64,000 bases of DNA, from the IMG/VR virus record IMGVR_UViG_3300045974_000429, positions 1 through 64,000 of that record, one strand, 5' to 3'. A program made the position numbers and the translations under genes. Positions 3,886 through 36,051 of this stretch are shown piece by piece (position 1 is the first letter of the stretch; each line of letters begins with the position of its first letter). This stretch comes from a virus. The notes under the pieces were generated by a model. That model searched no databases and was not told the origin of the DNA. It saw only the letters and a program-made list of their open reading frames with translations.

Positions 3886-4197
3886 TTAGGTCGGGATCCT
3901 GCGGAAGACGTAGAAGCGAGTGAGCGTCCTGGGTTGGCTGCCCGGAGGGCTTTCAGGTCTGGTGACGCGGACGCAGCGAAAGAGGCCCTTCACGGGTCGC
4001 GTGGGCTCGGAGGAATCTATCTCCCGGAGGAACCTGCGGCGCCAGACGAAGGCTGGGACGCTCGCCGGCTCCAGGCGGCGCTCCGCGAGTCTGCCGGACT
4101 CCGTCCGCCACCTGATGCGGTTCGCCAGCGTCAATGCCGCCTTCACGGCGTTCACGGCTTCCCGAAGGGTTGGCTTCCAGGTTTCTTGCCTGGGCAC
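3886..4197 (-). CDS. small basic paralogue, array member 6
   Basis: 103 aa. Last of six tandem genes that share a plan: an N-terminal LRxxVxAVKA segment (here TLREAVNAVKAALTLA), a central FLR motif (RRRFLREID) and a basic aromatic end (LTRFYVFRRIPT). About one residue in five is Arg or Lys. GTG start after GGAGG. No known domain recognised; strong positive charge suggests nucleic-acid or host-protein binding. Confidence 0.75.
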   Translation of the reverse strand: MPRQETWKPTLREAVNAVKAALTLANRIRWRTESGRLAERRLEPASVPAFVWRRRFLREIDSSEPTRPVKGLFRCVRVTRPESPPGSQPRTLTRFYVFRRIPT

Positions 4198-4198
4198 G

Positions 4199-4504
4199 CT
4201 AGTCCCTCCTGAATCGGTAGACCGTCAGGCGGTGCCGGAACAGCTTGTCTTTGGCCCTGTCGCCGCTCCACTTGCGCCGGTGGGTGGCGCCGCCCTTGAA
4301 GATGCCCTTGAGCAGCCCCAAAAGCGATCCCGTCTTCGGATCTCGTCGGAGGAACATGGGCCGGAGGCGCCAGGGGCGCCGCAAATCGGTGGAGCAGTAG
4401 GTGCGCCACAACCTCCCATCCACCCCGAGGGTGGCGGGTGCGCTCGCGGTCATCATGTTCATCAAAGCCTTCACGGCGTTCACGTCTTCCCTCAAACTCG
4501 ACAC
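4199..4504 (-). CDS. small basic paralogue, array member 5
   Basis: 101 aa. Begins VSSLREDVNAVKALMNMMTA, has RPMFLRRDPKTG in the centre and ends LTVYRFRRD, the clearest match to the array consensus. The GTG at 4504 is preceded by AAGGAGG at 5 nt and overlaps the end of the upstream member by 13 nt. The central segment (GGATHRRKWSGDRAKDKLFR) is very basic. Function unknown. Confidence 0.78.
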   Translation of the reverse strand: MSSLREDVNAVKALMNMMTASAPATLGVDGRLWRTYCSTDLRRPWRLRPMFLRRDPKTGSLLGLLKGIFKGGATHRRKWSGDRAKDKLFRHRLTVYRFRRD

Positions 4505-31409: not shown

Positions 31410-31858
31410 GCTTTCTTTTCGCTCTGCGCCGCTTCCCGCGCGAGGCGGGAAATTGCGGCGGGTTCCGCTCCGAGCTTGTGGAGCGCGAGGCATGCCTGAA
31501 ACGCATCCGGGTGCGACAGGCGGAGAGCGAGGACGCGGCGCCTGGTCTCCGGGGTGAGGGAGGTGTCGCCGGCTAGCCTGACGACATCGCGGTGCTGCGC
31601 CGCCGCCCAGTGGCCCCAGAGCAGCTTGGCGCGCCTGCCCCGCATGCCCAGCTGGTAGCCGGTCACGTCGCGGACCAGATCGACGCCGGCGGCCTGGAGG
31701 TGCTCGCCCCAGGGAGTCGGCACGATGACCTCGCCGGCCGCGAACCGCGCGCGGCGGGTGGTCAGCGCCTGACACCGATCGCCGGCTCGGTGCTGGGCGA
31801 GCCGCGAGGTGGCAATCTCGGCGGTGCAGCCAGGGCAGATCGTTATTGGGTCGGTCAC
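31406..31858 (-). CDS. small protein with N-terminal zinc motif
   Basis: 150 aa. ITICPGCTAEIATSRLAQHR, then AGDRCQAL near the start is a Cys/His cluster suited to zinc. The rest is helical: GMRGRRAKLLWGHWAAAQHR and SHPDAFQACLALHKLG. GTG overlaps the stop of the VWA gene. Its stop codon forms part of promoter P1. Function unknown. Confidence 0.72.
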   Translation of the reverse strand: MTDPITICPGCTAEIATSRLAQHRAGDRCQALTTRRARFAAGEVIVPTPWGEHLQAAGVDLVRDVTGYQLGMRGRRAKLLWGHWAAAQHRDVVRLAGDTSLTPETRRRVLALRLSHPDAFQACLALHKLGAEPAAISRLAREAAQSEKKA

Positions 31859-33273
31859 GGCGTCGGCTCCCGGTCCACGAGGACCACCTCGCCGAACCTC
31901 TTGACGTCGTTGGTGTAGGTGCTCCCAATGAGCGCCCAGATGACCTTGGCGCCCTTGGGCTCCGGGCCGGGGTCGCCGATCATGCCGTCCGTCAGGACGA
32001 TGATCACGCTGGGCGGCGTCCTGGATTCCATGAGGAGCTTGAGGGCCGGCTTCATGTCGGTGCCGCCGCCGCCCTTGAGCTTGGAGGCCGCCTCCTTGGC
32101 GGACCTGACCTTGAGGAGCCCATCCGTGCCCGCGTCGATGGCGCAGAAGGTGACGTCGCCGCCGACCGCCCGGAGGATGCCGTCCACCTCGCCGAGGGCC
32201 TGCGCGAGCTGCGCGCCGCTCATGCTGCCGGAGGTGTCCACGACGACCGCGACGTTGGGCTTGTGGCCGTGGAAGCTCGGCATCAGCGGGCGGCCCGGCC
32301 CGTAACCCAGGCCCGCCTGCCGGCGGCTCGGCTTGGAGAAGCCCATGTCGGTGGCGCCGGAGGCCCGCATGAGCGTGCGCCGCACGAGGCGCTGGAGCTT
32401 GTCCTGCCACCGGACCTTGGGCGGCTTGATCTTCTCCTCCGCCCACCGCGCGAGCCCGCCGGGGACGCTGCCGCGCCCCTTCTGCGCAACGTGGGAGGCG
32501 ACCTCGCGCGCGACCTGCGCCCGGATGCGCTCCGCCTCCGCCTCGCCGACGCCCAGCGGGTCGCCCTGGGCGGCCTCGCCCGAGCCCTTGCCCGGCTGTC
32601 CCTGACCGGCGCCGTCGCCGTCGCCGGGCTGCGGCTTGTCCAAGCCCAACTTCTTCTCGATGTCGTGCGCGTTGCCGGCGCAGGAGCCGCACTGGCCGTT
32701 GCCAGGGCCGCCCTTGCCCGGCTGCCCCTGGCCCTTGTTGCCCTGCTTCTTCTGGGACTGCTTCTTCCGCAGCTCCTCCAGGTAGACCTGGGCGGGCTGC
32801 CCCTCCGGCATCCCGATGCTGCTCGGCAGCCAGAAGATGTTCTCCACCTGGGCCTGGGCGGCGTACTCCGCCTTCGTGAGCGGGCGACCGGGCAGTTTCC
32901 AGCCTCCGGCGACGAGGTCGTCGTTGTTCGCCATGTCGCTGGCGAGGTTCGCGTTGTGGTGCTGGCTCGGGTCCGCCTTGCAGAGCGCCTCGAACCGCTT
33001 GACGTCCTGCCGGATGAAGTGGAGCAGCTCGTGGACGAGCGCGCCGGCCAGCTCGTCCGTCGGCAGGCCCGAGACGAATGCGGCCGAGTAGTAGCAGACG
33101 TTTTGGTCGGTCATCCCGAGCGTCGAGAACCCGCCCGGCCGGACCGGCTCGCACTCGGCGGCCGGCACCTCCAGGAACACGGTCCGCGAGAGCGCCGCCC
33201 AGAAATAGGGAGCCTTCGTGCGGACCGCTCGCCGAGCGATCTGGATGCACTGCATCGCGGTCAACTTGGCCAC
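31855..33273 (-). CDS. VWA-domain/metallopeptidase-like protein (MoxR partner)
   Basis: 472 aa. N-terminal domain with HExxH-type zinc site LVHELLHFIRQ (about 81-91), as in DUF2201-like proteins. A Gly/Gln/Lys-rich linker follows (about 172-232). The C-terminal von Willebrand A domain has the MIDAS motif VVVDTSGSMSG (about 337-347) and LTDGMIGD. MoxR ATPases usually work with VWA proteins to remodel complexes; here the MoxR gene is two genes upstream. GTG start. Confidence 0.88.
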   Translation of the reverse strand: MAKLTAMQCIQIARRAVRTKAPYFWAALSRTVFLEVPAAECEPVRPGGFSTLGMTDQNVCYYSAAFVSGLPTDELAGALVHELLHFIRQDVKRFEALCKADPSQHHNANLASDMANNDDLVAGGWKLPGRPLTKAEYAAQAQVENIFWLPSSIGMPEGQPAQVYLEELRKKQSQKKQGNKGQGQPGKGGPGNGQCGSCAGNAHDIEKKLGLDKPQPGDGDGAGQGQPGKGSGEAAQGDPLGVGEAEAERIRAQVAREVASHVAQKGRGSVPGGLARWAEEKIKPPKVRWQDKLQRLVRRTLMRASGATDMGFSKPSRRQAGLGYGPGRPLMPSFHGHKPNVAVVVDTSGSMSGAQLAQALGEVDGILRAVGGDVTFCAIDAGTDGLLKVRSAKEAASKLKGGGGTDMKPALKLLMESRTPPSVIIVLTDGMIGDPGPEPKGAKVIWALIGSTYTNDVKRFGEVVLVDREPTP

Positions 33274-33275
33274 GG

Positions 33276-33590
33276 CTACCACCCACCGCTGTAGCGGCCG
33301 GAGGTGCTCCCGCGCCCGTCGCACTCGTCGCAGTGCGACGGGTGGCAGCCGGGGTAGCCGCAGGGGCGCCAGTTGCGCGGCGCGGAGCGCGGCCGCTGGG
33401 GGAACTGCTCCGCCGCCATGATCTCCGCCCCAGATTGCGGCGCGGCCGCCAGCGGCGCGGGGCAGGCCAAGTGCGCCGCCTGCGCGCCCGGCGCCCAGAG
33501 GATCTGCGTTCCGGCCGGGAACCGCGCCCCGCACTTCGCGCAGGTTCCCGGAAACTTCGCCGCCATCTGCCTCGTGCCCGTCGTCGCCAT
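33276..33590 (-). CDS. zinc-ribbon protein
   Basis: 104 aa. Two Cys clusters: CAKCGARFPAG (about 17-27) with LACPAP, and CGYPGCHPSHCDECDGRG (about 76-93). The second looks like a small treble-clef or ribbon. ATG after GAGGAGACGAAG, a leader shared with the gene at 36381-36623. Lies between the MoxR and VWA genes. Function unknown. Confidence 0.75.
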   Translation of the reverse strand: MATTGTRQMAAKFPGTCAKCGARFPAGTQILWAPGAQAAHLACPAPLAAAPQSGAEIMAAEQFPQRPRSAPRNWRPCGYPGCHPSHCDECDGRGSTSGRYSGGW

Positions 33591-33675: not shown

Positions 33676-36051
33676 TTATTTCACGGCGACCAGGATCGGG
33701 TTGAGTTTGGCCAGTGTCTTCATCGACGCGGCGCCGAGCAGCCGGGCGCCGGCGAGCGCCCTGGCGGGCGCCTCGACCAGATCCGCGGCGTCATCCATCA
33801 GCGTCTCCAGGAGCGCCCACATCTTCGCGGCGCGCACCTTCTGGGAGGCGCCGGCGTCGCCGGTCACGAGCGCGGTGCAGGAGGAGAGGACCGCGTCCGA
33901 GATATCGAGGCGGTGAGGGTTGTGCTTCCACTTCGCCTTCCCGTCCAGGATCTCCGCCGGGTCCGGCAGGTCCATGTTCGTGGCGTAGGTCAGGAACTCG
34001 CCGGCGGGGCCGTCGCCGACGAAGGCTGCGACGAGCGTGTCCCGGTCGCCGGCCGAGAGGCCGTGGATCTTGGAGGCGGCGAAGGCCCGCGTGGCAGCCT
34101 CCCAGCTCCGGGGGGAGGGCCACGCCTGGGAGGCGGCCGGGCTGTTCGCCTCGGGCACCTTGAGGAGCAGGTCCGACTTGCGCTTGACGAACCCGGCGAC
34201 GAGGCCCCGAGCGGTCGCCCACGGCGTGCCCCAGGCGGCGAGCACCCGCGCCTCCTCGGCCGCCGGGTCGATGGGCGCGGCGGCGGCGCTCTCGCCACCG
34301 CCCAGGAGCCAGTTCGTCCACTCCTCGGCGGTCGGGGCCTCCCAGTTGATGTGGCCGAGTCGGTTGGCGACCGGCATCGCGAGGTCCCACCCGCCGGCCG
34401 CTTGGTCGGTCGGGTTCGCCGTGGCGAGCACCCGGACGCCCGAGGCGAGCGGCTGTCCGCCGATCATGCGCTCCTGGATGAGCCCGAGGAGCGGCGGCTG
34501 GAGCGCGGGCGGGGCGCAGTTGTGCACCAAGGTGCCGCCTGCCCCTGCGAAGAAATTGTGGTCGCGTTCGACGGTCAGGTCGTAGACGATGCAGGAAACG
34601 GCGTTGCGCTGGATTCGGTGCACGCGCACGAACGCAGGAAGTTGCGGATCAGCGCCTCCAGTGCGTCCGGAGTCCGGAGAAGCTGCGCACGAACCCGCAA
34701 GGTCCGCCAGCCCGCCGCGCGATAGTCTTGTGCTTCCAGCAGAGGCTCCGAGGGCGTTAAGCGGTCTAGCAGAATCGCCGCGCGCAGCGGCAGATCCGCA
34801 AAGTCCGGCACCCGCCAGTTTCTGCGCCCCCCCGGCGGGATCGGTACCCGCAAGCTTCCATCCCCCGTGTACGGCAGCGCGATCTTGCGCGCAGTGAGAA
34901 ACGTGATCATCTCCCGTTCTGTTGGCGTCGGTTTCGCCATGCGGAACACGCACGGGATCCGCCCGGAGATCGTGTGCGCGCGGTTCTTCGCTGCTATCGA
35001 GTCCATCTGCCCGTGCTTCCAGGCCGCCAGGAACTTGGTTGACGCCATCTCGCGCCCCGCAGCACTGCGCCAGAACGCTCCCGCAGCCCGCCCGCCCATC
35101 TGCGATAGATTTGGATGGATCTTCCGAGCCGCTGCAGCTGCACGCGATGCCGCTGCGGCCCGCTCCGCCGCGGTCGTCCTCGCGAGGAACGTTGCCGTGC
35201 TCTTGCGCTGAATTATTGCATTCACTTCGAGCGAAAGCGTTGCACGCATCTCGGCCAGCCTCGTTCCGTGCGCACGCTTCTCCGCAGCAAACGCTGGATC
35301 CGCCATCCGTGCGCGCTGCGTTACCGCCGCAGCCGCCCCGCGCCTTGCTGACATCTGCGGGTCCGCCAGCAGTGCTGCAGGGAACCGCGTGCGAAACTCC
35401 GCTACCGTCATCCCATGCCGCTTCTGAAGATGCGTCGCTGTGAGGACCCACATCGGCAGCAAGCAGATCGCGCAGCGCAACGAGGGTGCTTCCAGCGCGG
35501 AGCTGCTCTGCTGGGATCCAGCGTCCTTCGCTGTAGATGGGGTGGTCAGGGGTGCAGCGGATCGTCGTGCCATCGGTCAGCTCCAGGGTGAGCAGCGCCG
35601 TGACGCGGCGCTGCATGACTCCAGAAACCAGATTAGCGCGGCGCATCCCACGTTGCAAGGCGCAGGACCAGACGGCGTCACCGACCCGCAGCTGCTCGAT
35701 TGGCCGCTGGCCTTGTGGCGTGTGGACCGGCGTGCCTGCGGGGAAACAGGAAATCTCGTCGATGATGACCAGCCCCCTCTCCGCCATCCCGAGCGTCCAC
35801 TCGGGCGCGGGGTAGGAGAGGAGGGTGCGCCCGTTGATCGTGGTCGGGACCGGGACGACGCCGAAGGCGCCCTCGCCGCGCTCGCCGGGGGAGAGGATCT
35901 CGACCTTGAGGCCGCCAGCCTTTCCGGCCGCCTCGCAGCTCTGTGTTTTGGCGACACCCGGAGGGCCGCGGAACAGGAGGGGCAGGCCCCAGCGGTTCCG
36001 GCTGATGGGGGTGAAGAGGGCTGCGTGGAGGATCTTGGCCTTGTTCGTCAT
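33676..36051 (-). CDS. MoxR-type AAA+ ATPase interrupted by an intein
   Basis: 791 aa before splicing, 381 aa after. N-extein: Walker A RGPPGVAKT (28-36) and Walker B RGLVIIDEIS (92-101). The intein (residues 102-511) sits directly after DEIS; the C-extein resumes CAPPALQPPLLG, then LATANPTD (sensor 1) and RLGHINWEAP (Arg finger region). The insertion point in Walker B is a conserved site, as inteins prefer. MoxR proteins remodel partner complexes with VWA proteins; the partner is at 31855-33273. Driven by promoter P3. Confidence 0.9.
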   Translation of the reverse strand: MTNKAKILHAALFTPISRNRWGLPLLFRGPPGVAKTQSCEAAGKAGGLKVEILSPGERGEGAFGVVPVPTTINGRTLLSYPAPEWTLGMAERGLVIIDEISCFPAGTPVHTPQGQRPIEQLRVGDAVWSCALQRGMRRANLVSGVMQRRVTALLTLELTDGTTIRCTPDHPIYSEGRWIPAEQLRAGSTLVALRDLLAADVGPHSDASSEAAWDDGSGVSHAVPCSTAGGPADVSKARGGCGGNAARTDGGSSVCCGEACARNEAGRDACNAFARSECNNSAQEHGNVPREDDRGGAGRSGIACSCSGSEDPSKSIADGRAGCGSVLAQCCGARDGVNQVPGGLEARADGLDSSEEPRAHDLRADPVRVPHGETDANRTGDDHVSHCAQDRAAVHGGWKLAGTDPAGGAQKLAGAGLCGSAAARGDSARPLNALGASAGSTRLSRGGLADLAGSCAASPDSGRTGGADPQLPAFVRVHRIQRNAVSCIVYDLTVERDHNFFAGAGGTLVHNCAPPALQPPLLGLIQERMIGGQPLASGVRVLATANPTDQAAGGWDLAMPVANRLGHINWEAPTAEEWTNWLLGGGESAAAAPIDPAAEEARVLAAWGTPWATARGLVAGFVKRKSDLLLKVPEANSPAASQAWPSPRSWEAATRAFAASKIHGLSAGDRDTLVAAFVGDGPAGEFLTYATNMDLPDPAEILDGKAKWKHNPHRLDISDAVLSSCTALVTGDAGASQKVRAAKMWALLETLMDDAADLVEAPARALAGARLLGAASMKTLAKLNPILVAVK
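34519..35748 (-). mobile_element. intein in the MoxR ATPase, with HEN gene in another frame
   Basis: 410 codons. N-terminal splicing block A CFPAGTPVHTPQG, then block B GTTIRCTPDHPIYS (TxxH-type), then C-terminal blocks F/G VYDLTVERDHNFFAGAGGTL and the end VHN followed by Cys of the C-extein. Class 1 layout: Cys1, penultimate His, terminal Asn, Cys+1. About 300 codons in between read as Ala/Gly/Ser/Asp-rich low-complexity sequence in the splicing frame; the same DNA codes for a plausible homing endonuclease one frame away. Confidence 0.88.
34575..35573 (-). CDS. homing endonuclease, out of frame within the intein
   Basis: 332 aa in the +1 frame relative to the MoxR-intein frame. N-terminal MucR/ROS-like zinc finger with CAICLLPMWVLTATHLQKRH and GMTVAEFRTRFP (about 33-64). 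Helical Ala-rich middle. C-terminal Vsr/EDxHD-like nuclease region: PTPTEREMITFL, WRVPDFADLPLRAAILLDRL (acidic positions) and AAGWRTLRVRAQLL. Vsr-like endonucleases are known with split or interrupted inteins. It overlaps intein blocks at both ends, so the whole gene is dual-coded. No clear ribosome-binding site found. Confidence 0.7.
   Translation of the reverse strand: MARRSAAPLTTPSTAKDAGSQQSSSALEAPSLRCAICLLPMWVLTATHLQKRHGMTVAEFRTRFPAALLADPQMSARRGAAAAVTQRARMADPAFAAEKRAHGTRLAEMRATLSLEVNAIIQRKSTATFLARTTAAERAAAASRAAAAARKIHPNLSQMGGRAAGAFWRSAAGREMASTKFLAAWKHGQMDSIAAKNRAHTISGRIPCVFRMAKPTPTEREMITFLTARKIALPYTGDGSLRVPIPPGGRRNWRVPDFADLPLRAAILLDRLTPSEPLLEAQDYRAAGWRTLRVRAQLLRTPDALEALIRNFLRSCACTESSATPFPASSTT

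Follow-up and report, generated by a model that had tools for sequence, protein, structure and literature searches.

A gene for a MoxR-type AAA+ ATPase of a phage carries an intein within which a second, endonuclease-type ORF lies open in another reading frame and, judging from sequence, well over a hundred other phage genomes share this hidden layout, among them several lineages of isolated phages and more than 100 metagenomic lineages. The window analysed comprises the first 64,000 nucleotides of the virus record IMGVR_UViG_3300045974_000429 (83.7 kb), which encodes a tail sheath, a baseplate, a DNA polymerase and DnaB. We consider it highly probable that these elements are dual-coded inteins, in which one frame serves splicing and an endonuclease translated separately from another serves mobility. 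In this view the window holds a divergent and perhaps inactive example of a widespread architecture. In the proposed mechanism, a ribosome on moxR would read straight through the intein frame, the terminal splicing blocks would come together in one fold, release the intein of 410 residues and ligate the two MoxR halves, and the middle of the intein frame would be an unconstrained linker with the absence of stop codons as its sole requirement. An internal start in the +1 frame would yield a separate protein of the homing-endonuclease type, composed of a zinc finger, a linker and a Vsr-like nuclease, and in the relatives the free nuclease would cut intein-less alleles, into which the intein would then be copied. 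What was computed comprises the anatomy, the two open frames, purifying selection on the nuclease frame of the relatives, the avoidance of stops in the intein frame, the signals for a start and the exchange of inteins; splicing, separate translation, cleavage and homing are inferred, with no experiment behind them.

The host ORF (33676–36051, on the minus strand like all the window features given here) runs uninterrupted through 791 codons (791 aa) and matches the phage ATPase family phrog_1297 (4e-23). Its N-extein (35749–36051) contains the Walker A motif GPPGVAKT and the Walker B motif IIDEIS, directly after which we find the intein (34519–35748; 410 codons, host residues 102–511), which starts with Cys1 and ends in LVHN, followed by the Cys of the CAPP that begins the C-extein (33676–34518). 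The earlier note had read this region as a MoxR-intein frame open across 410 codons with good splicing blocks at both ends, and this was borne out by a complete set of motifs (Cys1, the TPDH of block B TxxH, the C-terminal His-Asn and the +1 Cys) and by matches to Pfam Intein_splicing (1.5e-11, above the cut-off) and NCBIfam intein_Cterm (7e-8). The N-terminal splicing block (35473–35748, intein codons 1–92) was aligned with the mini-inteins L191, K459 and K389, and the C-terminal one (34519–34638), reading VYDLTVERDHNFF...LVHN, with the VFDITVERDHNFLV...VVAHN of L191. This last locus (4001–4456) is a MoxR relative in which a mini-intein of 152 residues, without an endonuclease, occupies the very site of the window intein (ILIDEIS/CVPP). 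Intein-free MoxR relatives from other viral contigs, the closest with 40–48% identity, are continuous across the DEIS/CAPP site, so that removal of the intein would restore the host protein; they were retrieved with an alignment as query, whereas the spliced MoxR as a single query retrieved none. The gene after moxR (31855–33534) is DUF2201/VWA metallopeptidase-like, a type of gene commonly found as partner of MoxR genes, and its PHROGs family is labelled as an HNH endonuclease.

The nested ORF (34575–35573) comprises 332 codons from its ATG in the +1 frame, such that its third codon position coincides with the first position of the intein codons. It starts at intein codon 59 and stops at codon 391 of 410, overlapping both splicing blocks, as had been proposed from the first reading of the sequence. 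A GGAG resembling a Shine-Dalgarno core (35581–35584) lies 7 nt before the ATG, a signal whose significance holds at the level of the family only. Codon usage supports the ORF: in the middle of the intein, third-position GC of the intein frame drops from 0.95 to about 0.55, and that of the nuclease frame climbs to 0.83. Between ATG 35573 and a TTG at 35480 it is the intein frame that is favoured, and thereafter the nuclease frame. Since codon usage switches there and the nucleases of the relatives start at a similar place (about intein codons 86–92), the window protein may start at TTG 35480 (34575–35480, 301 codons), giving 301 aa, rather than at the ATG. Stop avoidance in the window itself is modest evidence: when the synonymous codons of the 332-aa ORF were shuffled, the intein frame stayed open in 0.5% of the trials, and in 14% when the codon usage of the exteins was applied (0.005 or 0.14), in high-GC DNA where long overlapping ORFs are common. 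The 332-aa protein with a MucR-like zinc finger and a Vsr-like region claimed by the earlier note stands as an ORF, with a start that may have been placed too early and with weaker domain support: a Ros/MucR-type zinc finger (CAIC...HLQKRHGMT, 35346–35477), predicted to be intact, weakly matches Pfam ROS_MUCR (E 0.0017, under the curated cut-off) and is 49% identical over 43 aa (E 7e-4) to that of an HNH nuclease from a Lysinibacillus phage, and a divergent Vsr/DUF559-like nuclease region (34659–34865) aligns with the overprinted Vsr/DUF559 family described below (hhalign P 3e-4, against 0.021 for the best of 30 shuffles).

An hmmsearch with a profile of the DUF559 core scored the window ORF no higher than shuffled sequences, and an AlphaFold (AF2) single-sequence model of it was uninformative at a pLDDT of 39. 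As for homologues of the 332-aa protein, whose absence would have counted against the original proposal, no close one appeared among viral contigs, genome contigs or plasmids, phages matched at the zinc finger only, a scan with the zinc finger alone gave no close homologue of the ORF either, and a bait made of a real zinc finger and an approximate Vsr-like consensus retrieved the zinc finger alone. Without such a homologue, the case for selection on the window nuclease is an indirect one. In the alignment with the family, the window AILLDRLTPS faces IAIEVDGxSH, with the family Glu changed to Leu and the Ser-His and several residues missing; as these positions are replaced, the activity of the window nuclease is doubtful, the catalytic residues having apparently been lost, and this is probably a degenerate as well as divergent copy. 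It could accordingly be argued, for the window only, that the intein frame is functional and the nuclease ORF a decaying remnant, still open since GC-rich DNA rarely forms stops. The altered catalytic positions, the lack of close relatives and the low-complexity, Ala-rich middle all fit such decay, whereas codon-position GC and codon usage still side with the nuclease frame and the zinc finger has been kept, and we see the chances as evenly balanced. This reading is limited to the window copy and remains compatible with a dual-coded explanation for the family.

The relatives of this intein provided much firmer ground. Through its N-block we reached Vibrio phage 1.088.O, where a Vsr-like ORF lies complete in the +1 frame of a helicase intein, a layout that recurs in V. 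cholerae phage CP-T1, Vibrio phages 159E43 and 103E44, Pseudomonas phage MR14 and Corynebacterium phage phi673, the helicase gene being uninterrupted in these last five. Scanning IMG/VR with a profile yielded 80 loci, of which 73 lie in +1 inside a longer host ORF, and further loci of this class, hereafter class 1, lie on contigs assigned to bacterial MAGs. When intein N-blocks resembling that of the window were scanned, a +1 ORF of at least 180 aa was present in 58 of 80, a proportion that gives no estimate for phage inteins in general, the queries coming largely from overprinted inteins. Altogether, 139 of the 149 pooled Vsr-like nuclease ORFs are nested in an uninterrupted host gene, all of them in +1 and none in +2, at GC contents of 30–66% and with isolates included; one of the ten non-nested cases (L032) is merely cut by the end of its contig. 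The hosts are SF2 and SNF2 helicases, clamp-loader ATPases and terminases, commonly interrupted at the DE motif of Walker B. The class 1 nucleases match DUF559 (6e-12) with an invariant D and an E-x-D-G-x-x-H motif, and a model of the CP-T1 type (AF2, pLDDT 86) found I-Bth0305I (3r3p) as its top PDB match with Foldseek (probability 1.0, E 4e-3, 19–20% identity). Model and alignment agree on a Vsr-like fold for the family, with acidic and His residues conserved.

Selection on the two frames was assessed in 94 distinct class 1 lineages by shuffling synonymous codons while the nuclease protein and its codon set were kept fixed. The intein frame contains no stops at all against 807 expected, and the third frame, taken as control, behaves neutrally (1418 observed, 1298 expected). 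Nesting was an entry condition for this set, and free-standing and split relatives were needed as a matching control: in free-standing nucleases (L058, L096, L102) and in those of split inteins (L056, L062, L073), stops in the corresponding frame occur at neutral frequency, with 11–32 observed against 14–29 expected. The comparison of codon positions in both frames, suggested at the outset as a check, was run on these relatives, and the differences between close pairs concentrate at position 3 of the nuclease codons, as in L002 and L015 (25 of 29), whose nuclease proteins are 98% identical compared with 86% for the intein-frame translations. From the excess at position 3 and the higher conservation of the nuclease, it follows that the nuclease of the relatives is under purifying selection and that the middle of their inteins is merely kept free of stops. 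It is mainly by way of these relatives, with a conserved nuclease frame and a stop-free intein frame, that the central proposals of the earlier note, a nested out-of-frame endonuclease and an odd linker as its by-product, found their support.

A second class was detected in the large subunit of terminases, where the +2 frame of the intein encodes an endonuclease of the HNH_3 family (Pfam, 3e-12 to 3e-17), as in L217, L221, L229, L241, L246 and most of the nested loci among L266–L347. Among 88 HNH ORFs, from loci obtained mostly in a dedicated scan, 58 are nested, all of them in +2, with Tetrasphaera phage TJE1 and Rhodobacteraceae phage LS06-2018-MD07 as isolates. Stops are again absent from the intein frame of 46 distinct lineages (0 against 95.5 expected), and the third frame shows 889 against 913. 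Because nuclease, frame and host site are all different, this class is apparently independent of class 1, and the arrangement would have evolved at least twice. In two of these terminases (L241 and L246) a second intein-like insert with a low-complexity middle lies upstream in the same ORF, and it may hide a further out-of-frame or decayed ORF. Moreover, the PHROG phrog_30251, labelled as terminase, matches residues 858–1066 of L246, which are the in-frame by-product of an overprinted intein; by-product linkers of this kind are already inside protein family libraries.

How the nuclease would be translated is indicated by the sequences around its start. In 36 of 93 lineages (39%) the nuclease frame has a Shine-Dalgarno core before its first ATG, compared with 9% of upstream positions (P 7e-14) and 13% of internal ATGs (P 3e-7), and in 9 lineages that ATG comes directly after a stop in its own frame; a looser test, in which the best of many candidate starts was taken, gave no Shine-Dalgarno excess. 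Programmed ribosomal frameshifting, which would make the endonuclease as a fusion to the N-block of the intein and without a start codon of its own, might have been suspected from the +1 offset common to all class 1 members and from nucleases that begin shortly after the N-block. We judge it improbable in the face of Shine-Dalgarno cores at the first nuclease ATG, of those 9 lineages, where the stop leaves no room for a fusion, and of the +2 offset of class 2. As for the mobility that dual-coded inteins would owe to the separate nuclease, Vibrio phages 1.088.O and 1.194.O share inteins that are 95.8% identical between exteins of 76–78% identity, and the loci K391 and K459, with exteins 88–94% identical, differ in the intein at their common site, which is overprinted in one and a mini-intein in the other. 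Such contrasts between intein and extein identity are the pattern expected of homing.

The window being a single virus contig, errors of sequencing or assembly could have split an ordinary in-frame intein endonuclease, and a sequencing correction had been named beforehand as a result that would refute the proposal. Given so many genomes this is no longer viable: both frames are clean throughout many isolates and contigs from several data sets, and the intein middle, read in frame, matched no family in L194 and L203, which served as two in-frame controls. Recurrence in isolates led us to reject the error for the family, and we grant it very little credence. A self-splicing intron with an endonuclease gene is hardly conceivable, out-of-frame endonuclease ORFs being normal in group I introns but the splicing blocks here being those of an intact intein; as candidates, group I and II introns were discarded when neither the window segment nor nine relatives gave an Rfam match.

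Canonical large inteins contain an in-frame endonuclease domain of the LAGLIDADG or HNH type, and the elements described here share with them the splicing blocks, the insertion at a conserved ATPase motif and the signs of mobility; the difference is that the endonuclease is a domain of the intein in the former and a separate protein-coding frame, in +1, in the window. The fractured genes of Dassa et al. in 2009 reportedly consist of split inteins whose halves enclose a Vsr-like endonuclease, and they resemble our family in that intein segments flank a separately encoded endonuclease of the I-Bth0305I type, with split members also found here (L056, L062, L073). In the window, however, the intein frame is uninterrupted within a single 791-codon ORF, the genes overlap and splicing would occur in cis. 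I-Bth0305I itself (PDB 3r3p) shares its fold with the class 1 nucleases at an identity of 19–20%, and the window copy lacks the conserved catalytic positions of the overprinted family. The closest precedent found in the literature is ShiLan, published in 2025, a mobile phage insertion in which the host frame is open and a zinc-finger HNH endonuclease is encoded out of frame, and for which the authors detected no intein or intron splicing domain (PMC11855218). Mobility, an open host frame and an out-of-frame zinc-finger endonuclease are common to both, but complete splicing blocks flank and overlap the endonuclease in the window and are missing from ShiLan, whose nuclease is HNH instead of Vsr-like (or HNH in +2 of terminases). 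The newness claimed for the arrangement carries the reservation that out-of-frame HNH insertions in phage genes, without a splicing domain, were already published (PMC11855218). For inteins proper, the literature search gave no report of an out-of-frame endonuclease, with the reservation that a preprint on non-canonical actinobacteriophage inteins may overlap (10.1101/2025.01.02.630785).

Alongside fusion in frame and the split (fractured) gene, overprinting would give inteins a third way to carry an endonuclease, and it suggests a possible origin for split inteins. We lean towards a broader view in which overprinting is a regular feature of phage inteins, with two unrelated nucleases (Vsr-like in +1 of P-loop ATPases and HNH in +2 of terminases), and begins with the insertion of a free-standing endonuclease gene into a mini-intein, in a frame that lets the intein stay open; stops would then turn the product into a split intein, and free-standing, overprinted and fractured forms would be states of one cycle. 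In practical terms, many phage inteins with odd linkers, or within genes annotated as "coil-containing" or "hypothetical", would hide a complete mobile-element gene that annotation has dropped. Long conserved overlaps on the same strand, with split and free-standing forms as natural controls, offer material to study the evolution of two proteins in one sequence, as well as a source of inteins whose endonuclease can be disabled with the splicing fold untouched.

Several loci deserve a separate mention. Five helicase inteins of the class 1 family are split or fractured (L056, L062, L063, L073, L074), with an N-half ORF that stops where the ATG of the endonuclease begins and a C-half that comes after the endonuclease. 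In L058 and L096 the family endonuclease is a free-standing gene immediately upstream of a helicase without intein, which may represent an ancestral or an alternative state. Two clamp-loader inteins, in AAA+ proteins of the DNA polymerase III delta type (L095 and L091), have the same +1 endonuclease, with one internal stop in the intein frame of L095. In Vibrio phage 1.238.A (L345, 2594–3446), a terminase gene, an HNH region and a separate gene with a Hint domain follow each other in a row, in what looks like a fractured terminase intein. Finally, the helicase of Vibrio phage 13VV501A (L011, 1652–4153) contains apparently two mini-inteins, one at Walker A and the other at Walker B.
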